Below are positions 29,366-52,651 of a stretch of DNA of 64,000 nucleotides, piece after piece. The position numbers were made by a program, and so were the translations under genes. A model generated the notes under the pieces. That model did not search any database, was not told the DNA's origin, and worked only from the letters and a program-made list of their open reading frames with translations. Within the stretch, counting starts at the first letter, position 1. Each line of letters begins with the position of its first letter. The stretch is from Nocardioides dongkuii (GTDB lineage Bacteria; Actinomycetota; Actinomycetes; Propionibacteriales; Nocardioidaceae): NCBI RefSeq assembly GCF_014127485.1, contig NZ_CP059903.1, positions 496,001 to 560,000 on the forward strand, read 5' to 3'.

Positions 29366-29646
29366 GCGGCGCCCAGCCTCTCTACGAGGTCTTCGTGCGC
29401 GCCAAGCGCGGGCTCAACCACGTGCACGTCGGCTCGCTGCACGCCGCCGACGACGCGATGGCGCTGCGGCACGCCCGCGACGTCTACACCCGGCGCAACG
29501 AGGGCGTGAGCATCTGGGTGGTCCGGGCCGACGCGGTCACCGCCTCCAGCCCCGACGAGAAGGACCCGCTGTTCGCCCCGGCCGGCGACAAGGTCTACCG
29601 GCACCCCACCTTCTACGAGATCCCCGACGATGTCCCCCACATCTGA
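29362..29646 (+). CDS. paaB: 1,2-phenylacetyl-CoA epoxidase, subunit B
   Basis: A small 94-residue subunit required for the assembled epoxidase. It shows the family pattern [20 protein letters not shown], then [20 protein letters not shown] and [14 protein letters not shown] at the end. ATG lies in an ATGA overlap with paaA; its own end overlaps paaC by 17 bases. Confidence 0.95.
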
Positions 29647-30481
29647 AGAGGGCGTGTACGACGGGCTGCTCGGCACCGACCCGGCGCACTGGGCGTTCGG
29701 CACCGGGTTCGCCGACCCGCTCGAGGGCATCGACCCGACGGTGCCCGACGGCGTGGACCGGGCGGCGCTCGCCGCGACCTGCCTGGCGCTCGGCGACGAC
29801 GCGCTGGTGCTCTCCCACCGGCTCTCGGAGTGGTGCAGCCGCGCCCCCGAGCTCGAGGACGACATCGCGCTCGCTAACGTCGCCCTCGACCTGCTCGGCC
29901 AGGCACGGCTGCTGCTCGCCCGCGCGGCGGTCGCCGACCCGTCGGTCGTGCCCGCGCTGCCGCCGGGGTCGCCGGTGCCCGCCGAGGACGCGCTGGCGTT
30001 CTTCCGCGCCGCCCCGGGCTTCCGCTGCTCGCGCGCCGCGGCGCTCGCCAACGGCGACTTCGCGCACACGGTCGTGCGGCTGTTCTGCTGGTCGGCGGTG
30101 CGGCTGCCGGCGCTCCAGCGGCTCGCCGCGGGAGACGACCCGGGCGCTGACCCGGTGCTGGCCGCGGTCGCCGCGAAGGGGGTCAAGGAGGTCGCCTACC
30201 ACCGCGACTGGTCCAGCCGCTGGGTGCTGACGCTCGCACGCGGCACCGAGGAGTCACGGCGCCGCACGGAGGCCGCGCTCGGCGCCCTCGCCCCGGCGTA
30301 CGACGAGCTGGTGGGCCGGCACCCCGAGGCGCGCGAGGACGCCGACCTGGCGCTCGGTCAGCTGCTGGACGCGTGCGGGCTGCCCCGCCCCAGCGGCACG
30401 CACGACCTGCCCGACGACCTGCCCGCGCTGCTCGCCGAGCTGCAGTCGGTCGCCCGCGCGCACCCGATGGCGGGGTGGTGA
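29630..30481 (+). CDS. paaC: 1,2-phenylacetyl-CoA epoxidase, structural subunit C
   Basis: A 283-residue partner of PaaA with the same helical fold but without the full di-iron ligand set. Recognisable segments are ALGDDALVLSHRLSEWCSRA, EDDIALANVALDLLGQARLL and KEVAYHRDWSSRWVLTLARG. It forms a heterodimer with PaaA. It is embedded in overlapping paa genes. Confidence 0.95.
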   Translation: MSPTSEEGVYDGLLGTDPAHWAFGTGFADPLEGIDPTVPDGVDRAALAATCLALGDDALVLSHRLSEWCSRAPELEDDIALANVALDLLGQARLLLARAAVADPSVVPALPPGSPVPAEDALAFFRAAPGFRCSRAAALANGDFAHTVVRLFCWSAVRLPALQRLAAGDDPGADPVLAAVAAKGVKEVAYHRDWSSRWVLTLARGTEESRRRTEAALGALAPAYDELVGRHPEAREDADLALGQLLDACGLPRPSGTHDLPDDLPALLAELQSVARAHPMAGW

Positions 30482-30483
30482 GC

Positions 30484-30966
30484 ATGACGACGGCGTACGA
30501 CGTGGCCGCGTCGGTGACCGACCCCGAGATGCCGATGCTGACCATCGCCGACCTCGGCGTGCTCCGCTCGGTCGAGGAGGGCCCGGACGGCGCGGTGGTG
30601 GTGACGCTGACCCCGACGTATTCCGGCTGCCCCGCGCTCGGCGTGATGCGCGACGACGTGGTGCGCCGGCTCGCCGAGGAGGGCCACCCCGACGTGCGGG
30701 TGCGGGTCGCGCTGGACCCGCCGTGGTCCAGCGACCTGATCACCGAGCGCGGCCGGGCCGCGCTCGCCGAGCACGGCGTCTCCGCGCCCGGCGCGGCACC
30801 GGCCGGGCCGGTGGCGCTCACCCTCGGCCCGTCGCGCCGCGCGGTGCGCTGCCCGCGCTGCGGGGCCGGCGCCGAGCTCACCTCGGAGTTCGGGCCGACC
30901 TCCTGCACCGCGCTGTACCGCTGCCCGGCGTGCCGCGAGCCGTTCCAGCACGTCAAGGAGATCTGA
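30484..30966 (+). CDS. paaD: phenylacetyl-CoA epoxidase assembly protein D
   Basis: 160 residues. The N-terminal half is a DUF59/MIP18 domain (VTDPEMPMLTIADLGVLRSV, PTYSGCPALGVM) of the kind used in iron-sulfur assembly. The C-terminal half is a four-cysteine zinc ribbon (RCPRCGAGAELTSEFG, later TSC and RCPACREPF). It is thought to mature the PaaE cluster or the enzyme. ATG 30484 is used; GTG 30478 is an equally placed alternative. Confidence 0.93.
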   Translation: MTTAYDVAASVTDPEMPMLTIADLGVLRSVEEGPDGAVVVTLTPTYSGCPALGVMRDDVVRRLAEEGHPDVRVRVALDPPWSSDLITERGRAALAEHGVSAPGAAPAGPVALTLGPSRRAVRCPRCGAGAELTSEFGPTSCTALYRCPACREPFQHVKEI

Positions 30967-32006
30967 TGTTCCACCCCCTGGTGGTCGACCGGGTCGAGCG
31001 GCTGACCGACGACGCGGTCGCGGTGACCTTCGCGGTGCCCGACGACCTCCGCGACACCTACGCCTTCGCGGCCGGGCAGTCGCTCACGCTCCGCCGGGTC
31101 GTCGACGGCGTCGAGCACCGCCGGTCGTACTCCATCTGCGCGCCCGTCGGCGCCGCGCCCCGGATCGGCGTCCGGGAGATTCCCGACGGGCTGTTCTCCC
31201 GCTGGCTGGTGCGCGAGGTGGCGCCCGGCGCGACCGTCGAGGTGCTGCCGCCGACCGGCCGGTGGCGCGCCGAGCCCGGCGGCCGGCACCTCTGCCTCGC
31301 GGTGGGCTCCGGCATCACCCCGCTGCTCTCGATCGCGGGCACCGCGCTGACCGGCCCGGACGCCGACGTCACGCTGGTCTACGGCAACCGCACCAGCGCG
31401 TCGGTGATGTTCGCCGAGGAGGTGGCCGACCTCAAGGACCGGTACGGCGCGCGGTTCTCGGTCGTGCACGTGCTCAGCCGCGAGCCCCGCGACGTCGAGC
31501 TGTTCTCGGGGCGGCTGGACGCCGACCGGCTGCGCCGGCTGCTGACCACGGTCGCGCCGGTCGCCGGGGTCGACCACGTGTGGGTGTGCGGTCCGTTCGC
31601 GATGGTGGTGGTCGCGCGCGAGGTGCTGGCCGAGCTGGGCGTGCCGCCCGAGCGGGTGCACGTCGAGCTGTTCCACGTCGACGAGCCGCCGCCCGACCTG
31701 GTGCGCGCCGAGGCGGTGCCGACCGGCGAGACCGCCGAGGCGACCGTGGTCCTCGACGGCCGGTCCACGACCGCGCGGGTGCCGCGCGACGTCCCCCTCC
31801 TCGACGGGCTGCAGGCGACCCGCGCCGACCTGCCGTTCGCCTGCAAGGGCGGGGTCTGCGGCACCTGCCGGGCGCTGGTGCGCGACGGCTCGGTCCGGAT
31901 GCGGCGCAACTACGCGTTGGAGCCGGCCGAGGTGGACGCGGGCTACGTGCTGACCTGCCAGGCGGTGCCGGAGACCGAGCGCGTGCTGGTGGACTTCGAT
32001 GCCTGA
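30966..32006 (+). CDS. paaE: phenylacetyl-CoA epoxidase, NADPH-dependent reductase subunit E
   Basis: Electron-transfer subunit, 346 residues. It has a ferredoxin-reductase FAD domain (AAGQSLTLRRVVDGVEHRRS, YSICAP), an NAD(P) domain (AVGSGITPLLSIAGTALTGP, HVWVCGPFAMVV), and a C-terminal plant-type 2Fe-2S domain (FACKGGVCGTCRALVRDG with a further Cys in YVLTCQAVP). The start overlaps the paaD stop by one base. The last 8 bases overlap the regulator gene. Confidence 0.95.
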   Translation: MFHPLVVDRVERLTDDAVAVTFAVPDDLRDTYAFAAGQSLTLRRVVDGVEHRRSYSICAPVGAAPRIGVREIPDGLFSRWLVREVAPGATVEVLPPTGRWRAEPGGRHLCLAVGSGITPLLSIAGTALTGPDADVTLVYGNRTSASVMFAEEVADLKDRYGARFSVVHVLSREPRDVELFSGRLDADRLRRLLTTVAPVAGVDHVWVCGPFAMVVVAREVLAELGVPPERVHVELFHVDEPPPDLVRAEAVPTGETAEATVVLDGRSTTARVPRDVPLLDGLQATRADLPFACKGGVCGTCRALVRDGSVRMRRNYALEPAEVDAGYVLTCQAVPETERVLVDFDA

Positions 32007-32625
32007 GGTCTCTGCGCGGCCCCGGCGGGGGCGCCCCGGCCACGACCAGCAGGCGGTGCTGCGGGTCGCGATCGACCTGTTCATCCGCCAGGGGTACGAC
32101 GCGACCAGCATGGGCGACCTCGCCGCGGAGCTCGGGCTGAGCAAGGCCGCGCTCTACCACCACGTCCCGGGCAAGGAGCGGCTGCTGGAGCTGGCGCTCG
32201 ACGAGGCGCTCGGCGGGCTGACCGCGCTGGTGGCCCGGGCGACCGACGACGGCGCGGAGGGGACGGCGTACGCGCGGCTGCGGCAGGTCGTCGAGGACGG
32301 CGTCCGCCTGCTGGTGGCGCACCAGCCGGCGGTCACCCTGCTGCTGCGGGTGCACGGCAACACCGAGGTGGAGCGGGCCGCGCTGGAGCGCCGGCGGTGG
32401 GTCGACGCCCGGCTCGCGGCGCTGGTCCGCGAGGCCGCCGCCGAGGGGGCGGTGCGCGACGACCTGGCGCCCGACGTGGTCTCCCGGCTGCTGTTCGGCA
32501 TGGTGAATTCGCTGGTGGAGTGGTACGACGCCGCGGGGCCGGTCGACCCCGGTGAGCTGGCCCGCGCGGTGGCGGCCGTCGCCTTCGAGGGGCTGGTCAG
32601 CCCACCGGCCGGGCGAGCGCGTTGA
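31999..32625 (+). CDS. paaR: TetR-family regulator of the paa operon
   Basis: 208 residues. The N-terminal helix-turn-helix (AIDLFIRQGYDATSMGDLAA, ELGLSKAALYHHVPGKERLL) is a classic TetR domain. The C-terminal part is an all-helical ligand pocket. Being the last gene of paaABCDE, and with a TetR-type palindrome over the paaA start, it is best read as an autoregulating repressor released by phenylacetyl-CoA, as known for PaaR. The symbol rests on this context. Its last 29 bases overlap the convergent gene end. Confidence 0.85.
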   Translation: MPEVSARPRRGRPGHDQQAVLRVAIDLFIRQGYDATSMGDLAAELGLSKAALYHHVPGKERLLELALDEALGGLTALVARATDDGAEGTAYARLRQVVEDGVRLLVAHQPAVTLLLRVHGNTEVERAALERRRWVDARLAALVREAAAEGAVRDDLAPDVVSRLLFGMVNSLVEWYDAAGPVDPGELARAVAAVAFEGLVSPPAGRAR

Positions 32626-33646
32626 CCGCGCCGCGGAAGACCGGCGGCAGCGCCCGGGCGGCGGGGACGACGGCGCGCCGGGCGAGCGGCGCGCGGGTGC
32701 CGGCGAGCAGCGCGGCGGTCAGCCAGCGGTAGCGCCGGGTCAGCCGGCGCCACTCCGCGTCGTAGCGCTGCGGGTCCCCGTCGAGGATCGCCGCGACCGC
32801 GGCCCGGGCCTGCGCGAACCCCAGCGCGAGCCCCTCGCCGGTGAGCGCGTCGACGTACCCCGCCGCGTCGCCGACCAGCAGCACCCGCCCGGCGACCCGG
32901 CAGCGCGCCTCCTGGCGCAGCGGCCCCGCGCCACGCACGTCGCTGGCGGGCTCGGCGCCGGCCAGGGCCTCCCGCAGGCCGGGCAGCATCGCCAGCCGCG
33001 CGTCGTACGACCCCTTGGTCGAGGCGAGCACGGCGACGCCGACGAGGTCGTCGGCGACCGGGGTCACGTAGGCCTCGACCTCGGGCGCCCAGTGCACCTC
33101 GACGTACGGCGACCACGGGGCCACCGCGAAGTGCCGCCGCAGCCCGAAGCGGGGCCGGTGCGCGGTGCCCACCTCGAGGCCGAGCAGGCGCCGGACGGGG
33201 GAGTGCAGCCCGTCCGCCGCGACCAGGTGCCGGGCGCGGACGCCGTCCACCCGTACGCCTTCGTCGTCCTGGCACAGCGCGCGGACCGCGCGCTGCTCGA
33301 ACCCGACGCCGGCGGCCACCGCGGCCCCGTGCAGCGCCGCGTGCAGGGTGGTACGCCGGATCCCGCGGCCCGGGCCGCGGCGGAAGTCGGCGTCCGCGCT
33401 GGCCCGGCCCGCGACGTACCGGATGCCCCGGAACGGGTGCCCCGCCGGGTCGACCCCGAGCCCCTGGAGCTCGGCCAGCGCGCCCGGCATCAGCCCCTCG
33501 CCGCACGCCTTGTCGACGGCACCGGGCCGCGGCTCCCAGACCTCCACCCGGAGGCCGGCCCGGGCGGCGTGCAGGGCGGTCACCAGGCCGGCCGGGCCGC
33601 CGCCGGCGACCAGGAGGTCGACCTCCCGGGTGCTGGCTGGGGTCAC
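32597..33646 (-). CDS. FAD-dependent hydroxylase, SrsC-like
   Basis: A 349-residue group-A flavoprotein monooxygenase/GGR-fold protein. Visible are the FAD motif LLVAGGGPAGLVTALHAARAG, the CGEGLMP loop, and RVLLVGDAAGYVDALTGEGL. Last gene of the coupled six-gene operon; its GTG start overlaps the methyltransferase stop. The order type III PKS, membrane methyltransferase, flavin hydroxylase is that of srsABC in Streptomyces griseus as I recall it. Hydroxylation of a phenolic lipid ring, perhaps to a quinone, is therefore the likely job. This is inferred, not shown. Confidence 0.85.
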   Translation of the reverse strand: MTPASTREVDLLVAGGGPAGLVTALHAARAGLRVEVWEPRPGAVDKACGEGLMPGALAELQGLGVDPAGHPFRGIRYVAGRASADADFRRGPGRGIRRTTLHAALHGAAVAAGVGFEQRAVRALCQDDEGVRVDGVRARHLVAADGLHSPVRRLLGLEVGTAHRPRFGLRRHFAVAPWSPYVEVHWAPEVEAYVTPVADDLVGVAVLASTKGSYDARLAMLPGLREALAGAEPASDVRGAGPLRQEARCRVAGRVLLVGDAAGYVDALTGEGLALGFAQARAAVAAILDGDPQRYDAEWRRLTRRYRWLTAALLAGTRAPLARRAVVPAARALPPVFRGAVNALARPVG

Positions 33647-34164
33647 GCGGCCACCGCGTGCAGGGCCCGCTCCTCGGCGCGGATCCGGACCCGGAGCAGC
33701 GCGGCGTTCGCCACGGTGAAGACGGCGGCCGCCACCCACGCGCTGTGCACCAGCGGGAGGGCCAGCCCCTCGAGCACCACGACGAGGTAGTTGGGGTGCG
33801 GGAGGAAGCGGTAGGGCCCCGAGGAGACCAGCGGCAGGCCCGGGACCACGATCACCCGGGTGTTCCACTGGTGGCCGAGGGTGCCGATGCACCACCAGCG
33901 CACGACCTGCGAGAGGACCACCAGCGCGAGCATCGTCCACCCGAGCGCGGGCAGGAACTCCCGGTCGGCGAGCCAGGCCTCGACCAGGCAGCCGACCAGC
34001 AGCCCGGTGTGGATCAGCACCATCACCGGGTAGTGGCCGCGCCCGGTCTCCACGCCGCCGCGCGCGAACGCCCAGGCCGCGTTGCGCTGGGAGACCACGA
34101 GCTCGGCGACCCGCTCCAGGCCGACGAGCAGGATCAGGACCGTGAACAGCGCCTCGCTGCTCAT
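33643..34164 (-). CDS. isoprenylcysteine carboxyl methyltransferase (ICMT) family membrane protein
   Basis: 173 residues with about four membrane segments and the ICMT/phospholipid methyltransferase C-terminal block (TRVIVVPGLPLVSSGPYRFL, then PHPNYLVVVLEG), which binds S-adenosylmethionine. It is sandwiched between the type III PKS and the FAD hydroxylase by 4-base overlaps on both sides. In such clusters this family methylates a phenolic or acid oxygen of a membrane-bound lipid, not a protein. Confidence 0.88.
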   Translation of the reverse strand: MSSEALFTVLILLVGLERVAELVVSQRNAAWAFARGGVETGRGHYPVMVLIHTGLLVGCLVEAWLADREFLPALGWTMLALVVLSQVVRWWCIGTLGHQWNTRVIVVPGLPLVSSGPYRFLPHPNYLVVVLEGLALPLVHSAWVAAAVFTVANAALLRVRIRAEERALHAVAA

Positions 34165-35237
34165 GCCGCCGCCCGGAGCAGCACCAGCTCGGAGCAGAAG
34201 CCGGGGCCCATCGCCAGCATCAGGCCGTACGAGCCGGGCCGTGGTGGCCGGTCGGCGAGGGTGTCGGCGAGGACGTGCAGCACCGACGCGGAGGACAGGT
34301 TGCCGATCCGGCGCAGCGAGTCCCAGGTCATCCCGAGCGCCTCGCGGTCCACCTCGAGCGCGTCCTCGAGCGCCTCGAGCACCTTGGGGCCGCCGGGGTG
34401 CGCGACGTACCACTCGATGTCGTCGTGGCCGAGGTCGTGGTCGGCGAGGAACCGCCGCACGTCCTCGCCGACGTACCGGCGGACGACGTCGGGGACCTGG
34501 CTGTCCAGGACGATCTTGAGCCCGCCGGCGCCGACGTCCCAGCCCATGGTGCGCTCGGAGTCGGGGTAGAGCCGGCTGCGGCTGGCGAGCACCTCGGGCT
34601 GCGGCGCGTCGCCGGTGGCGAGCTGGGCGGCGCGGCGGGCGCCGACCGCGACCACCGCGGCGGTGCCGTCCCCGAAGAGCCCGCTGGCCACGAGGTTGGC
34701 GACCGAGGTGTCGTCGCGCTGGAGGGTGAGCGAGCACAGCTCGACGCTCATCAGCACCGCGACGGCGTCCGGGTGCCCGACGAGGTAGTCGTGCAGCCGG
34801 GCGACGCCGGCGGCCCCGGCGACGCAGCCGAGGCCGACGATCGGCACCCGGACCACGTCGTCGCGCATGCCGGTGAGCGCGGCGACCCGGGCGTCGAGGG
34901 AGGGTACGGCGAGGCCCGTGACGGTCGCGGAGACCAGCAGGTCCACGTCGTCCGGTGCGAGGTCGACGGCCTTGAGCGCGTCGACGACGGCGCGGGCCCC
35001 GAGCTGGACGCCCGCGGCGATGAACGCGTCGTTGGAGGCGCCGAAGTCGCCGAGGCCGGCGTACTCCTCCAGCGGGATCGCGGTGTGCCGGGTCTCCACG
35101 CAGGCGTTCCGGTGGAACCGGTCGACGACCGCGCGGTTGACGTTCTCGCCCATCATGATGGCGGCGAAGGAGTCGGTGATCTGCTCCTGCGGGTAGCAGT
35201 GCTCGGGCAGGGCGCCTCGGACGCTCAGGATGCGCAT
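34161..35237 (-). CDS. type III polyketide synthase
   Basis: A 358-residue homodimeric chalcone/alkylresorcinol-synthase-type enzyme. The catalytic triad is complete: Cys138 in VGLGCVAGAAG, His280 in YVAHPGGPK and Asn313 in RIGNLSSAS, with normal spacing. The C-terminal MLAMGPGFCSELVLL is the GFGPG-region equivalent. Bacterial members condense a fatty acyl-CoA with malonyl-CoA into alkylresorcinols, alkylpyrones or related rings. ATG 35237 is chosen for its spacing to GAGGAGAG; ATG 35243, two codons upstream, would give a TGA overlap with the previous gene. Confidence 0.95.
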   Translation of the reverse strand: MRILSVRGALPEHCYPQEQITDSFAAIMMGENVNRAVVDRFHRNACVETRHTAIPLEEYAGLGDFGASNDAFIAAGVQLGARAVVDALKAVDLAPDDVDLLVSATVTGLAVPSLDARVAALTGMRDDVVRVPIVGLGCVAGAAGVARLHDYLVGHPDAVAVLMSVELCSLTLQRDDTSVANLVASGLFGDGTAAVVAVGARRAAQLATGDAPQPEVLASRSRLYPDSERTMGWDVGAGGLKIVLDSQVPDVVRRYVGEDVRRFLADHDLGHDDIEWYVAHPGGPKVLEALEDALEVDREALGMTWDSLRRIGNLSSASVLHVLADTLADRPPRPGSYGLMLAMGPGFCSELVLLRAAA

Positions 35238-35239
35238 GG

Positions 35240-36427
35240 TCATCTCTCCTCGACAGGCTCGACAGGCTGGGGCGACGGGTGGGTTCGCGCGGCGGGGCGC
35301 CGCAGCGACCCGGCCAGGCCGCGGACGACGGCGGGGGTGATCCGGCCCCGGGCCAGGCCCAGCTCGACCAGGTCGTCGAAGACGCGCTGGTCGCGGGCGG
35401 CGGCGCGCAGCCCCGCCTCCAGGACCGCGCCGTGGCCGGTCAGCCGGGCGGCCGCGGCGGTGTGCCGCAGGTGGGGGAGCAGGTGCGAGCGGGCTGCGCG
35501 CACGTAGCGCCGCCCCGCGGTCGCCGGGGCGCCGTCGGCGACGGCGGCCGCGGCGGCCCGGCCGGCGGCGATGCCGGTGGCGACCGCGTAGTAGATGCCC
35601 TCCCCGGTCAGCGGGTTGACCAGCCCCGCGGCGTCGCCGACCAGCAGCACCCGGCCCGAGGGCGGCCGCCAGCGCGCCCCGGAGAGCGGCAGGTGGTGGC
35701 CGGTCCAGCCCTCGCCGCCGGTGGTGGAGCCGGGCAGCAGCTCCTCGAGGGACGCGAGCAGGTCGGCCCGTCGGGGCGCCGCGCGGCCGTCGTGGAGGAC
35801 CTCGCCGTACCCGACGTTCGCGAGGCCGTCGCCGCGGTCGAAGGACCAGGCGTACGACGGCTGCCGGCGGGTGCCGAAGACGATCACCTGGGCGCCGGCG
35901 CGGCCCGACGGCGTGGGGGCGTAGCCGCGGAGCGCCAGCGCGGTGCGGGCGTGGGTGACGCCGAGGCCGCGGCGCACGGCCGACCGGGCGCCGTCGGCGC
36001 CCACGACCACCGACGCGTCCAGCTCGCCGTCGAGGAGCACGGAGTCGGGGTGGGTGGCGACCTCGCGGACCCGGTGCCGGACCAGCACAGCCCCGGCGCG
36101 GCAGGCCGCGTCGACCAGCCGGGCGTCGAGCACGCGCCGGGGGACGACGTACGACGGGCGCGTCATGGTGCGGTCCACCTCGTGGTCGTCGCGGGCCAGC
36201 CGCAGCCGCGAGACCGGGACCCGGTCGTCGAGCAGGCCGGTCACGCCGACCTCGGCGAGCCGGTCCAGGACGTGCGGCGCGACGCCGTCGCCGCAGGCCT
36301 TGTCGCGGGGGAAGTCGGCGCGGTCGAGCAGCGCCACCCGCAGCCCCGGGTCGGCGTGCAGCGCGCCGAGCGCGGCCGCCGCCCCGGCGGGCCCGGCGCC
36401 GACGACGGCGAGGTCCCAGGTGGCCAT
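35240..36427 (-). CDS. geranylgeranyl-reductase-family FAD oxidoreductase
   Basis: 395 residues with a GGR/PHBH-type FAD fold: DLAVVGAGPAGAAAALGAL at the N-terminus, FPRDKACGDGVAPHVLDRL with the conserved CGDG loop, GADGARSAVRRGL, and LLVGDAAGLVNPLTGEGIYY. This CGDG pattern is typical of enzymes that saturate isoprenoid chains or oxidise quinol-type lipids. Located between the UbiA gene and the PKS gene, it may reduce the prenyl tail or act on the prenylated ring. The start overlaps the UbiA stop. Confidence 0.88.
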   Translation of the reverse strand: MATWDLAVVGAGPAGAAAALGALHADPGLRVALLDRADFPRDKACGDGVAPHVLDRLAEVGVTGLLDDRVPVSRLRLARDDHEVDRTMTRPSYVVPRRVLDARLVDAACRAGAVLVRHRVREVATHPDSVLLDGELDASVVVGADGARSAVRRGLGVTHARTALALRGYAPTPSGRAGAQVIVFGTRRQPSYAWSFDRGDGLANVGYGEVLHDGRAAPRRADLLASLEELLPGSTTGGEGWTGHHLPLSGARWRPPSGRVLLVGDAAGLVNPLTGEGIYYAVATGIAAGRAAAAAVADGAPATAGRRYVRAARSHLLPHLRHTAAAARLTGHGAVLEAGLRAAARDQRVFDDLVELGLARGRITPAVVRGLAGSLRRPAARTHPSPQPVEPVEER

Positions 36428-37230
36428 CAGCCGGCCGCCACGAGCAGGGCGACGTCGACCAGCGCGATCGCCATCGCCGCGCGGAACGGCCCGCGGCCGC
36501 TCCCCGCGAGCGCCGTCGCGGCGAGCGCCACGACCACCACCAGCGCGGCCCAGACCCACCCGGGCGGGCTGCCCTCGGGGCCGAGCGCGGCGAGCAGGGA
36601 GGCGGCGACGAGGAGCGCCGCGGCGAGCGGTCGCGCGAGGGTCGGCCCGATCCGGTGCGGCATCCCGCGGACGCCGGTGCGCAGGTCGTCGGCGAGGTCG
36701 GGGAGCGCGTTGAGCACGTGCGCGCCCACCCCGAGGGCGGCGCCGGCGGCGAGCATCCACCACGGCGGCCACGCGGGGTCGTCGCCGGCGAGGTGGGCGA
36801 TCGCCGGGAGGGTGCCGAAGGCCACGGCGTACGGCACCCAGGAGAGGGCGGTCGCCTTGAGGCCGAGGTTGTAGGCGTGCGCCGCGCCGACGACGAGGAG
36901 CAGGTGCACGACGCCACTGCGCCAGCCCGCCGCGAGGGAGAGGGGCACGCAGGCGATCAGCGCGAGCGCCAGCGCGACGCCGACGGTGCGCTCGCCGACC
37001 AGGCCGGCCGCCACCGGCTTGTCCAGGCGGCCGACGGCGCGGTCGCGGTCGGCGTCGAGGAGGTCGTTGCCCCACCCGACGCTGAGTTGGCCGGTGAGGA
37101 CCGCCGCGGTGACCAGGACCGCGGGCGCGGCGCCGAGGCCGGCCGAGACCGCGAGCAGCCCGGTCACGGTGGTCACCGCGGCCGTGGGCCCGGGGTGGGC
37201 GGCCGTCAACAGGCCGCCCGCCGCCGTCAC
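36427..37230 (-). CDS. UbiA-family prenyltransferase
   Basis: A 267-residue polytopic membrane enzyme with about eight hydrophobic helices and both aspartate-rich motifs: GNDLLDADRDRAVGRLDKP (first NDxxDxxxD) and NALPDLADDLRTGVRGMPHR (second). UbiA enzymes attach polyprenyl diphosphate to aromatic rings or related acceptors. In an operon with a type III PKS, the acceptor may be the resorcinol or quinone it makes. The GTG start overlaps the epimerase stop. SCO-type menaquinone MenA homologues look different in context; no men genes are nearby. Confidence 0.9.
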   Translation of the reverse strand: MTAAGGLLTAAHPGPTAAVTTVTGLLAVSAGLGAAPAVLVTAAVLTGQLSVGWGNDLLDADRDRAVGRLDKPVAAGLVGERTVGVALALALIACVPLSLAAGWRSGVVHLLLVVGAAHAYNLGLKATALSWVPYAVAFGTLPAIAHLAGDDPAWPPWWMLAAGAALGVGAHVLNALPDLADDLRTGVRGMPHRIGPTLARPLAAALLVAASLLAALGPEGSPPGWVWAALVVVVALAATALAGSGRGPFRAAMAIALVDVALLVAAG

Positions 37231-38294
37231 GGCCGCGTCCTCCGGGCGACGGGACCACGGCGTACGGCGTCGCGCAGCGCGCCCGGGACGGTGCGGCGCC
37301 GCAGCACCGGTGTCGGGCCGGACGCCCCGGAGCGCATCCCCTCGACCGCCTCGGCGAACACCTCGACGGCGCTGCGGGTCGCGCCCCAGCCGAGCTCGCT
37401 GCGAGCGCGGGTGGTGTCGAGCAGGGGGAGTGCGTAGGCCATGTCCAGCCAGCCCTCGTCGATCTGCTGGAGCCGCATCCGCCAGGTCGCCGCGACCACC
37501 GGCCGGAGCACCTCGGACGGCACGTGCACGAGCTTGGCGCCCAGGCCGCGGGCGATGTCGGCGGCGGTCAGGGGGTCGTCGGCGGCCAGGTTGAACGGCC
37601 CGCCGACCCGGCCCTCGAGGGCGCGGGCGACGGCGTCCGCGACGTCGTCGGCGTGCACGACCGGGATCCGCAGCCCGCGGTCCAGCGGCAGCACCGGGAG
37701 CAGGTGGAGGGCGCGGCGCGGGATCGCGCCCGGCACGCCGTACCGCAGCAGCGCGCTGCCCGCCGTCCGCTGGCCCACGATGCCCGGACGCATCCGGGTG
37801 ACCGTCGTGCCGCGGCCGGGCGACGCCGCGGTCTCCGCCTCGAACCGGTCCAGGATCCGCTCCGCGGCCGCCTTGTGCCGGCTGTACGGCGAGGTGGGGA
37901 CGCCGCCGGTCGGGTAGGACTCCGTGACCGGGGTGTCGTCGGAGCGCGGCGAGTAGGCGCCTACCGAGGACAGGTGGACCAGGTGGGGGACGTCGGCGCG
38001 GGCGACCGCCTCGACGACCCGCCGGGTGCCGCCGACCCCGAGCTCCTCGAGGTGGTCGATGTCGTGGGAGGGCTGGAAGCCCCAGGCCAGGTGCACCACG
38101 GCGTCGGCGCCGCCGAGGATGCCGGCGAGCTGCTCGACGCTGACCGTCGTGAGGTCGACGGTGCGCCACTCGACGTCCGGGAGGCCCTCGGGCAGCCGCC
38201 GGGCCAGCCCGACGAGCTGGTGCCCGGTGCCGGCCAGCCGGCGCAGGACCGCCGTGCCGATGTTCCCGGTCGCGCCGGTGACGACGATCCGCAT
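37227..38294 (-). CDS. NAD-dependent epimerase/dehydratase family protein
   Basis: 355 residues of the extended SDR fold: VVTGATGNIGTAVLRRLAG at the N-terminus, HLSSVGAYSPR with the active-site serine, and the Y-x-x-x-K site in SPYSRHKAAAERIL. It reads more like an atypical SDR acting on a lipid or isoprenoid ketone/alcohol than a sugar epimerase. First gene of the coupled operon; GGGGAGAG precedes the ATG. Divergent from idi. Confidence 0.87.
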   Translation of the reverse strand: MRIVVTGATGNIGTAVLRRLAGTGHQLVGLARRLPEGLPDVEWRTVDLTTVSVEQLAGILGGADAVVHLAWGFQPSHDIDHLEELGVGGTRRVVEAVARADVPHLVHLSSVGAYSPRSDDTPVTESYPTGGVPTSPYSRHKAAAERILDRFEAETAASPGRGTTVTRMRPGIVGQRTAGSALLRYGVPGAIPRRALHLLPVLPLDRGLRIPVVHADDVADAVARALEGRVGGPFNLAADDPLTAADIARGLGAKLVHVPSEVLRPVVAATWRMRLQQIDEGWLDMAYALPLLDTTRARSELGWGATRSAVEVFAEAVEGMRSGASGPTPVLRRRTVPGALRDAVRRGPVARRTRP

Positions 38295-38463
38295 GATCTC
38301 TCCCCGCTGCTCTTCCGACCTGCACGGTGCCCCTCGGGGTGGGGCCTCACACGGCTCACCACCGCCCGGATCTCGGCCTGATTGCGGGACGGGGTCGGCG
38401 GTTACCGGCCGGACGCCCCTCGCCGCCTCCAGCGGCGTCCGGGCGCCGCCGAAGGGACCGGGG

Positions 38464-39018
38464 ATGTCGCTGCAGAGCGAGGAGCGGACCGACGACCTCG
38501 TCGTCCTGCTCGACGCGGACGGCACGCCGTCCGGCACCGCGCCGCGGGCCGACGTGCACACGCGGGACACGCCGCTGCACCTGGCGTTCTCCTGCCACCT
38601 GCTCGACCCGGACGGCCGGATGCTGATGACCCGGCGTGCGCTGAGCAAGCGCACCTGGCCGGGCGTCTGGACCAACTCCTTCTGCGGCCACCCCCGCCCC
38701 GGCGAGGAGATGGCCGACGCCGTGGTCCGGTACGGCCGCCACGAGCTCGGCGTCGAGGTGACCGGCGTACGCCTGCTGCTGCCCGACTTCCGCTACCGCG
38801 CCGTCGACGCCGGCGGGATCGTCGAGAACGAGCTGTGCCCGGTCTTCGTCGCGCGCACCGTCCAGGTCCCGCAGCCGAACCCCGACGAGGTCGCCGAGCT
38901 GTCCTGGGCCGATCCCGAGGACGTGTGGACGATCGTGCGGCGCGCGCCGTGGGCGCTCAGCCCGTGGTTCGTCGACCAGGCGCGGGCGCTCCGCAACGCG
39001 GACTCGCTGCCCGGCTGA
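38464..39018 (+). CDS. idi: isopentenyl-diphosphate delta-isomerase (type I)
   Basis: Interconverts isopentenyl and dimethylallyl diphosphate. The 184-residue NUDIX-fold enzyme shows LHLAFSCHLLDPDGRMLMTR, TWPGVWTNSFCGHPRPGE with the catalytic cysteine and metal histidine, and GIVENELCPVFVA with the catalytic glutamates. Its place beside a UbiA/GGR operon suggests it feeds prenyl donor supply. It is transcribed away from that operon across a 169-base gap in which I see no clear operator. Confidence 0.95.
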   Translation: MSLQSEERTDDLVVLLDADGTPSGTAPRADVHTRDTPLHLAFSCHLLDPDGRMLMTRRALSKRTWPGVWTNSFCGHPRPGEEMADAVVRYGRHELGVEVTGVRLLLPDFRYRAVDAGGIVENELCPVFVARTVQVPQPNPDEVAELSWADPEDVWTIVRRAPWALSPWFVDQARALRNADSLPG

Positions 39019-39925: not shown

Positions 39926-39939
39926 GAACGCCCCCACCA

Positions 39940-40248
39940 CCGGTGGTCGAGCAGGGACGAAGTCCCGGTGTCGAGACCCGGTGGGGGACCTGGGGCCTGG
40001 GGTGGGCACGTGTGCTGCGGGGTTCTCGACATCGCTCGTCGCTGGCGCTCCTCGCTGCTCGACCACCGGGGGTCGAGCAGGGAAGGCGCGCAGCGCCTGA
40101 CCGTCGTCGAGACCCCACCCGGTGGTCGAGCAGGGACGAAGTCCCGGTGTCGAGACCCGGTGAGGGACCTGGGGCCTGGGGTGGGCACGTGGGTTGCGGG
40201 GGTCTCGACATCGCTCGTCGCTGGCGCTCCTCGCTGCTCGACCACCGG
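39940..40248. repeat. two copies of a 130-bp palindromic interspersed element with a partial third
   Basis: This fills the 328-base gap 39926-40253, which has no gene. Full copies lie at 39940-40069 and 40119-40248. Each is bounded by CCGGTGGTCGAGCAG and its complement CTGCTCGACCACCGG, with an inner GTGTCGAGACC/GGTCTCGACA pair. A short related piece (about 40070-40118, GGTCGAGCAGGGAAGGCGCG start) sits between. The copies are nearly identical. The layout is REP/BIME-like. Confidence 0.9.
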
Positions 40249-51464: not shown

Positions 51465-51472
51465 GGCGGGAC

Positions 51473-51561
51473 ACGACAGGGGAGCACGCGCGAGCGTGCT
51501 GAGAGTGCGGACCAGCCGCAGACCCTCGAACCTGCTCCGGTTAGCACCGGCGAAGGGAGCT
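51473..51561 (+). ncRNA. TPP riboswitch (THI element)
   Basis: The conserved parts occur in order: ACAGGGGAGC at the P1/P2 start, a GAGCACG-CGCG-CGTGCTGAGA P2/P3 region with the CTGAGA motif, then ACCCTCGAACCTG, then CTCCGGTTAGCACCGGCGAAGGGA closing P4/P5 and P1 (described here in pieces: CCGGTTAGCACCGGCG, AAGGGA). The element ends at the ribosome site of the gene at 51566. It should shut off translation or transcription of the importer when thiamine diphosphate is abundant. Confidence 0.95.
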
Positions 51562-51565
51562 CGGA

Positions 51566-52651
51566 ATGAACCTGTGCACCCGTGCGCGCCTCCAGATGGT
51601 CTCGATCACGGTCCCGCTGACGCTGCTCGCGGCGTCCTGCTCGCTGGGGGGAGGTGCGGACGAGGGCGGATCGGACGGCGACAGCACCGGGAGCGGGCCG
51701 GACACGGTCGTCCTGGTGACCCACGACAGCTTCGCGCTGCCCGAGGAGCTGGTCGCGTCCTTCGAGGAGCAGAGCGGCCTCGAGCTCGAGGTGCGGCCGT
51801 CCGGCGACGCCGGCGCGCTGACCAACAAGCTGGTCCTCACCAAGGACAGCCCGACCGGGGACGTGGCGTTCGGCGTCGACAACACCTTCGCCTCCCGCGC
51901 GGTCGACGAGGGCGTGTTCGCCTCCTACGCGCCGACGCTGCCCGAGGGCGCCGCCGAGCTCGAGCTGCCCGGCGACGAGGACGACGCGCTGACCCCGGTC
52001 GACACCGGCAACGTGTGCGTGAACGTCGACGACACCTGGTTCGAGCGGGAGGGCATCGCCCCGCCGCGCACGCTCGCCGACCTCGCCGACCCGGCGTACC
52101 AGGACCTGCTCGTGGTCCCCGGCGCCGCGACCAGCTCGCCGGGGATGGCCTTCCTGCTGGCGACCATCGCCGAGTTCGGCGAGGCGTGGCCGGCGTACTG
52201 GGCCGACCTCGTCGACAACGGGGTCAAGCTCACCTCGGGCTGGTCGGACGCCTACCAGGCCGACTTCACCCAGGGCGGCGGGAAGGGCGACCGCCCGGTG
52301 GTGGTCTCCTACGACTCCTCCCCGGCGTTCACCGTCGACGGCGAGGGCGGGACGACGACCAGCGCGCTGCTCGACACCTGCTTCCGCCAGGTGGAGTACG
52401 CCGGGGTGCTGGCCGGCGCGGAGAACCCCGACGGCGCCGAGCAGGTGGTCGACTTCCTGCTGAGCCAGGAGGTGCAGGCGGCGCTGCCGACCAGCATGTA
52501 CGTCTTCCCGGTCTCCTCGGACGTCGAGCTGCCGGCGGAGTGGGCGGAGTTCGCGCCGCAGCCGGACGCGCCGTACGACGTCGACCCGGACGCGATCGCC
52601 GCGAACCGCGACGACTGGCTGCGCGAGTGGAGCGACGTCACCAGCCGATGA
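51566..52651 (+). CDS. thiB: thiamine ABC transporter substrate-binding lipoprotein
   Basis: A 361-residue extracytoplasmic thiamine receptor. The signal has a hydrophobic core and lipobox LLAASC with Cys25, then a Gly/Asp/Ser-rich linker. The mature part has VVLVTHDSFALPEELVASFE and VDNTFASRAVDEGVFASYAP, both typical of the TbpA/ThiB family, and NVCVNVDDTWFEREG. It sits directly behind the TPP riboswitch and is coupled to the permease gene by an ATGA overlap. Confidence 0.93.
   Translation: MNLCTRARLQMVSITVPLTLLAASCSLGGGADEGGSDGDSTGSGPDTVVLVTHDSFALPEELVASFEEQSGLELEVRPSGDAGALTNKLVLTKDSPTGDVAFGVDNTFASRAVDEGVFASYAPTLPEGAAELELPGDEDDALTPVDTGNVCVNVDDTWFEREGIAPPRTLADLADPAYQDLLVVPGAATSSPGMAFLLATIAEFGEAWPAYWADLVDNGVKLTSGWSDAYQADFTQGGGKGDRPVVVSYDSSPAFTVDGEGGTTTSALLDTCFRQVEYAGVLAGAENPDGAEQVVDFLLSQEVQAALPTSMYVFPVSSDVELPAEWAEFAPQPDAPYDVDPDAIAANRDDWLREWSDVTSR

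Follow-up and report, generated by a model that had tools for sequence, protein, structure and literature searches.

Type III polyketide synthases (PKSs) clustered with tailoring genes are the closest described counterparts of the locus analysed here, a run of six genes at 32597-38294 of a 64,000-nucleotide stretch of the Nocardioides dongkuii genome (NZ_CP059903.1, positions 496,001 to 560,000; hereafter the window). A three-gene operon of PKS, methyltransferase and oxidoreductase in Streptomyces MNU77 resembles M. smegmatis pkqA-C, and its products are methoxy-methyl-alkyl quinones with C14-C19 chains (PMC9927152, a paper that contains neither "prenyl" nor "UbiA"). In M. smegmatis, too, such an operon yields methoxy-methyl-alkyl benzoquinones. 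In Actinoplanes missouriensis, 6-alkyl-4-O-dihydrogeranyl-2-methoxyhydroquinones have been named (PMC3569393), the alkylresorcinols of AgqA are prenylated and hydroxylated (PMC10896814), and a membrane enzyme that performs O-prenylation is cited for the agq work (PMC4044012). Orthologues of agqA-D occur in Phytohabitans, where the compounds were not detected (PMC7692728), and agq-like clusters have been reported in Micromonospora (PMC8146288, PMC9967187, PMC7375171). The losA locus of Micromonospora endolithica has genes for a UbiA protein, a methyltransferase, a flavoprotein and a type III PKS, in that order (PMC7587189 Table 1), and alkylresorcinols are the compounds reported on heterologous expression (PMC7587189).

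The six Nocardioides genes probably make a meroterpenoid phenolic lipid, that is, a fatty phenol with an added, partly hydrogenated terpene chain. The gene order, enzyme families, catalytic motifs, recurrent linkage and genomic co-occurrence behind this reading were observed. The genes lie on the minus strand and exactly span 32597-38294. In order of transcription they encode an extended short-chain dehydrogenase/reductase (SDR) of the epimerase/dehydratase family (37227-38294; PF01370, E 8.1e-26), a UbiA-family membrane prenyltransferase (36427-37230; PF01040, 74.1 bits), a geranylgeranyl-reductase-type (GGR) flavoprotein, a presumed prenyl-chain reductase (35240-36427; TIGR02032, 174.2 bits), a Pks11/PkqA-like type III PKS (34161-35243), a pkqB-like ICMT-type membrane methyltransferase (33643-34164; PF04140, 95.3 bits) and a pkqC-like flavin adenine dinucleotide (FAD) monooxygenase (32597-33646; PF01494, 49.8 bits). 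The last three are called the core below. Successive genes overlap by 4, 1, 4, 4 and 4 bp; use of an alternative in-frame ATG of the PKS at 35237 would turn a 4-bp overlap into a 2-nt gap. Because the genes overlap in one run, UbiA and GGR are likely to be cotranscribed with the core. An isopentenyl-diphosphate isomerase gene, idi (38464-39018, plus strand; NF002995, 260.3 bits versus a cut-off of 127), diverges from the operon. Its start is separated from that of the SDR gene by 169 bp (38295-38463), presumably the promoter region, in which no sigma-70-like match was found. A sequence-only reading of this DNA had proposed an overlapping six-gene operon with a divergent idi; its coordinates and strand were exact, and all six families were borne out by the Pfam and NCBIfam calls made on the window proteins. 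At the other end, the FAD monooxygenase gene overlaps a convergent TetR gene (31999-32625, plus strand) by 29 bp, tail to tail. The source genome is a single 4.2-Mb contig with one match to the cluster PKS at E 0.001.

Compared with pkqABC, the window likewise has a Pks11/PkqA-type PKS followed by a methyltransferase and then an FAD oxidoreductase, a likeness drawn via Pks11. The two named Mycobacterium loci show the core order of the window with a PKS 59% identical to it, and in one of them (L040) the three proteins are 59, 63 and 58% identical. pkqABC comprises three genes with unprenylated products as described, whereas the window adds UbiA, GGR, SDR and idi; the locus is thus not a three-gene machinery lacking a prenyl-transfer gene, as UbiA and GGR overlap in one run with the core. 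The likeness to agqA-D, at family level only, is a type III PKS clustered with tailoring genes that include a membrane prenyltransferase. The agq product, known here via citing papers, bears a dihydrogenated prenyl group on a methoxylated alkylhydroquinone. The passages citing it name no linked reductase, idi or SDR for agq, and the window has all three. With losA the window shares the grouping of UbiA, methyltransferase, flavoprotein and type III PKS. With srsABC of Streptomyces griseus, compared by gene order only, it shares the succession of PKS, methyltransferase and oxygenase; no UbiA or GGR is named for srsABC in the accessible text of PMC4573997. The same source states that sco7669-7671, a relative of the core, is organised like srsABC and describes its final product as unknown, in keeping with the srsABC-like phenolic-lipid core that the sequence-only reading had recognised. 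That reading had been unable to match a described compound. The agqA-D alkyl-O-dihydrogeranyl-methoxyhydroquinones are, however, a described isoprenoid-bearing phenolic lipid from the same kinds of enzyme, and the comparison with known type III PKS clusters that it had suggested gave a described compound class but no exact match to a known product. The cluster is best filed as a pkq-type core combined with an agq-type prenylation step and a linked reductase, idi and SDR. It is a widespread version of a known kind of lipid pathway, nothing unheard of.

The PKS consists of N- and C-terminal chalcone/stilbene synthase domains (Pfam), and its nearest solved relative is M. tuberculosis Pks11 (4jao; phmmer, 386 bits, E 1.6e-114). 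Its catalytic triad C140, H282 and N315 was kept in 163/163 aligned relatives. An identification as DpgA was rejected: the DpgA family scored 189 bits, below its cut-off of 425, and Pks11 was far closer at 386 bits. Of the 191 non-identical loci in the survey set out below, 179 had both an ICMT and an FAD monooxygenase gene called close to the PKS. The ICMT-type enzyme is a predicted O-methyltransferase of the phenol. The FAD monooxygenase, of the FAD_binding_3 family (PF01494) and without the GGR motif YxWxF...GxG, is a predicted ring hydroxylase.

UbiA has the NDxxDxxxD and second DxxxD motifs of its family and an all-helical UbiA fold in a predicted model (mean pLDDT 93), whose best PDB fold match was the archaeal UbiA homologue 4od4 (TM 0.77); a sequence search of UbiA against the PDB gave 0 matches. 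N55, D56, D59, D63, D178 and D182 were each kept in 140/141 PKS-linked copies, and all six in 40/40 copies of a UbiA-centred fetch (one of which, L267, is itself PKS-linked). By analogy, the role of this UbiA may be AgqD-like. The GGR scored above the GG-red-SF (TIGR02032) cut-off of 158.8. The motif YxWxF...GxG, which we take to be typical of geranylgeranyl reductases, was present in 93/93 cluster GGRs and in 0/177 cluster FAD monooxygenases scoring >400 bits. The residue after the F, presumably Pro as a rule in geranylgeranyl reductases (YxWxFP), is Asp in 91/93 cluster copies (90 YAW[SAC]FD and 1 YTWSFD), and this YAWxFD variant is possibly a substrate marker. The SDR is complete by motif, with T6, G7, G10, G13, S109, S110, Y137 and K141 invariant in a 13-sequence alignment that included the window. 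Its predicted model (mean pLDDT 80) retrieved generic epimerase/SDR folds and no clue to a substrate. The likely part of idi is prenyl-donor supply.

Linkage of these genes was surveyed in 211 loci, comprising the window, 50 loci from a PKS scan of named genomes and 160 fetched stretches; removal of 20 duplicates left 191. The named loci were found in Nocardioides, Actinomycetospora, Pseudonocardia, Streptomyces, Jiangella, Rhodococcus, Mycobacterium and others. A search of plasmids returned 5 records, the best of them a Streptomyces record without annotation at that place. Loci were treated as comparable when PKS, ICMT and FAD genes were called and at least 4 kb was present on both sides, which held for 154. 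The 37 left out had short flanks (25) or did not have both ICMT and FAD called by profile (12); among the latter is L004, whose ICMT was found by tblastn. With linkage defined as a distance within 5.5 kb, UbiA was linked to the core in 127/154 loci (126 by profile, and L022 set by hand), GGR in 83, idi in 65, SDR in 17 and a polyprenyl synthase in 3. With PF01040 at 5 places in the 4.2-Mb genome of the window, chance alone would put one into ~1% of 11-kb stretches, and the linkage of UbiA therefore exceeds chance, although the 154 loci were found via the PKS, are mutually related and are not 154 independent cases. The sequence-only reading had predicted an isoprenoid addition, and the recurrent linkage of UbiA, GGR and idi, with the polyprenyl synthase in three loci, backs it.

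The position of the linked genes varied. In the 126 loci called by profile, UbiA shared the strand of the core in 76 loci where it lay upstream and in 7 where it lay downstream; it was divergent on the upstream side in 41 and convergent on the downstream side in 2. Of the 65 linked idi genes, 56 followed the core on its own strand and 9 diverged from it upstream. All six genes stood in the order of the window in 14/154 loci (L037, with UbiA and GGR on the other strand, was excluded). Parsimony on a PKS tree of 163 rows required 12 changes for UbiA presence, 16 for UbiA placement, 18 for GGR and 17 for idi placement.

At E 1e-50 the PKS was detected in 94/244 genomes of a family sample and 121/393 genomes of a class sample, and UbiA was searched in the same samples at E 1e-40; both searches scored the best few candidates per genome, so that absences are uncertain. 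In the family, 91 genomes had PKS and UbiA, 3 PKS only, 9 UbiA only and 141 neither; with UbiA at E 1e-50 the figures were 88, 6, 9 and 141. In the class they were 79, 42, 52 and 220. Fisher values of 4e-52 for the family (E 1e-40 table) and 1e-18 for the class overstate the evidence because the genomes are related. Thirteen genomes without UbiA near the PKS were checked (12 of the 27 unlinked loci, and G281, also without a called FAD monooxygenase). UbiA was present elsewhere in 8 of them at E <1e-40 and in one more at 2e-33, and it was absent at E 0.001 in the remaining 4, in a search that detected the control genomes G027 and G041.

The two samples held 59 genomes positive for UbiA and negative for the PKS, of which 28 were fetched. 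In 12 of these (L229-L231, L233, L235-L238, L242, L243, L245 and L247), UbiA adjoins a type III PKS of a divergent lineage. L229 has the order UbiA, Methyltransf_11 methyltransferase, acyl-CoA dehydrogenase-like flavoprotein and type III PKS, which is the losA layout, and its PKS scores 194 bits with the profile of the cluster PKS. Its Methyltransf_11 and acyl-CoA dehydrogenase-like partners differ in family from the ICMT and FAD monooxygenase of the window; one UbiA family thus accompanies two type III PKS lineages. This is the best single argument for UbiA acting on the phenolic product, and type III PKS phenols are accordingly its probable substrates. UbiA without a nearby PKS was seen to retain another neighbour, idi in L249 and SDR in L259.

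PF01040 matches were found at 5 places in the 4.2-Mb genome. The idea that the cluster UbiA and GGR are the sole copies of the genome was rejected, as further PF01040 and GGR-type proteins lie elsewhere. The other PF01040 matches resemble MenA (L056), DPPR synthase, beside a DprE1-like gene (L057), CtaB (L055) and a paralogue (L059), and a further GGR is MenJ-like (L060); these names come from reading the sequences and are not family calls. The cluster UbiA was barely alignable with the MenA-like protein (E 0.07) and the cluster GGR was 30% identical to the MenJ-like protein, and the cluster copies therefore look dedicated to another task. The paralogue L059 is 41% identical to the cluster UbiA over 103 residues and adjoins apparent CarD and IspD genes. 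The UbiA of losA is also near a CarD-family gene and an ispD-type gene (PMC7587189 Table 1).

In the pathway that we infer, all substrates, the prenylation position, the chain lengths and the physiological role are predictions from these enzyme families and their relatives. The type III PKS would build an alkyl(methyl)resorcinol on a long-chain acyl starter, with malonyl and probably also methylmalonyl as extender units, the ICMT-type enzyme would methylate one hydroxyl, and the FAD monooxygenase would hydroxylate the ring to give a methoxyhydroquinone. A prenyl diphosphate would then supply the prenyl group that UbiA attaches, most likely at oxygen, where the agq product is reported to carry its own. 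GGR would hydrogenate one or more double bonds of the prenyl chain, idi would raise the prenyl-donor pool, and the SDR would perform some redox step. An O-linked prenyl group like that of the agq product would block the quinone form, and the molecule would then serve as a membrane lipid instead of carrying electrons.

Several observations weigh against a prenylated product of the whole cluster. UbiA was not linked to the core in 27/154 loci, of which 21 had none of UbiA, GGR, idi and SDR nearby and six (L028, L045, L049, L089, L090 and L092) had GGR, idi or SDR in its absence. A missed UbiA gene was looked for near the core of L180, L183 and L186, and none was found in the ten reading frames scanned; in two of these loci the PKS is immediately preceded by a DUF488 gene of the same strand (L180:7515-8252 and L186:7416-8252). 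The named Mycobacterium (L040, L041) and Rhodococcus (L039) loci show the core alone in the DNA available for them, L041 being short downstream and outside the 154. Half of the class genomes with PKS only (21/42) belong to one family, f5, and 0/21 of its PKS-positive genomes had UbiA at E 1e-40; the core can therefore work without UbiA. Comparison of independent pairs gave no clear sign either way that GGR or idi tracks UbiA, because UbiA seldom differed within a pair. No type III PKS was called in the stretches, some of them short, from 16/28 fetched UbiA-only genomes, and Streptomyces MNU77 is reported to make unprenylated quinones (PMC9927152). One alternative is that the core yields an ordinary polyketide quinone like that of mycobacteria, and that a separate isoprenoid lipid, tied to it only by co-regulation, is the product of UbiA, GGR, idi and SDR. 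The loci with an unlinked core, the UbiA genes with no PKS called nearby and the three-gene size of the described polyketide quinone pathway all fit it. Such a division of labour nevertheless seems unlikely, given that UbiA accompanies type III PKS genes of two lineages and stays near the cluster PKS in four different placements.

Two other alternatives concern the product. It could be identical to the agq compound, 6-alkyl-4-O-dihydrogeranyl-2-methoxyhydroquinone, lacking a ring methyl, with the reductase simply linked here. This would agree with the shared kinds of gene (type III PKS, a prenyltransferase of UbiA type, tailoring genes) and with the reduced prenyl group that the agq compound bears. 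However, the PKS groups with Pks11, whose characterised relatives use methylmalonyl-CoA (the M. marinum enzymes, modelled on Pks11, use malonyl- and methylmalonyl-CoA; PMC5916927), and the MNU77 products bear a ring methyl (PMC9927152), which makes this identity distinctly improbable. The PKS might instead take a short starter, leaving the prenyl chain as the only membrane tail of a polyketide-derived prenylquinone like ubiquinone or plastoquinone. Enzymes of the UbiA and GGR types also act in the pathways to respiratory prenylquinones, and this general role speaks for the idea, as does Thr54 of the window PKS, which stands at the tunnel position of Leu52 in Pks11 and is Thr in 61/130 UbiA-linked PKSs. 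SCO7671, described as a near relative of the mycobacterial type III PKSs, accepts benzoyl- and isobutyryl-CoA in vitro (PMC4573997, PMC6274091). Against this, the relatives that have been characterised, Pks11 and the enzymes of M. marinum among them, take long acyl-CoA starters (PMC5916927, PMC6274091), and replacement of Leu by the smaller Thr does not alone close the tunnel. No clear tunnel switch was seen in the alignment among PKS residues distinguishing UbiA-linked from unlinked loci. We regard a short starter as very improbable, and a meroterpenoid phenolic lipid with a fatty chain from a long-chain starter as the probable product.

Other features of the window were noted in passing. Next to the operon end, 29630-32625 holds paaC, paaD and paaE followed by the TetR gene that converges on it. 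An intergenic repeat at 39936-40248 consists of two 130-nt copies with 97% identity; a 34-nt piece of the repeat unit gave 23 matches (<=3 mismatches) in the same genome, several in close pairs, and its reversed control gave 0. A thiamine pyrophosphate (TPP) riboswitch lies at 51468-51576 on the plus strand (56.4 bits).

For the agq-type lipids, the linked GGR is a candidate for the step that makes their prenyl group "dihydro". No description of a GGR or idi linked to such a cluster was recognised in the accessible parts of open-licence PMC papers, which is not proof of absence. Polyketide quinones have so far been presented as unprenylated alternative electron carriers from three genes. Should a prenyltransferase prove to be the usual partner of the core, a different molecule is to be expected in many actinobacteria, and its role, as a redox carrier or an O-capped membrane lipid, would be directly testable. 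Were the prenyl group on carbon, the product would be ubiquinone-like. A further-reaching reading, conceivable though rather unlikely, takes the polyketide quinone of the many actinobacteria with both this core and UbiA to be a prenylated molecule. C-prenylation of the ring by UbiA and partial saturation of the chain by GGR would give a fully substituted, ubiquinone-like polyketide prenylquinone that works alongside menaquinone as an alternative respiratory carrier.

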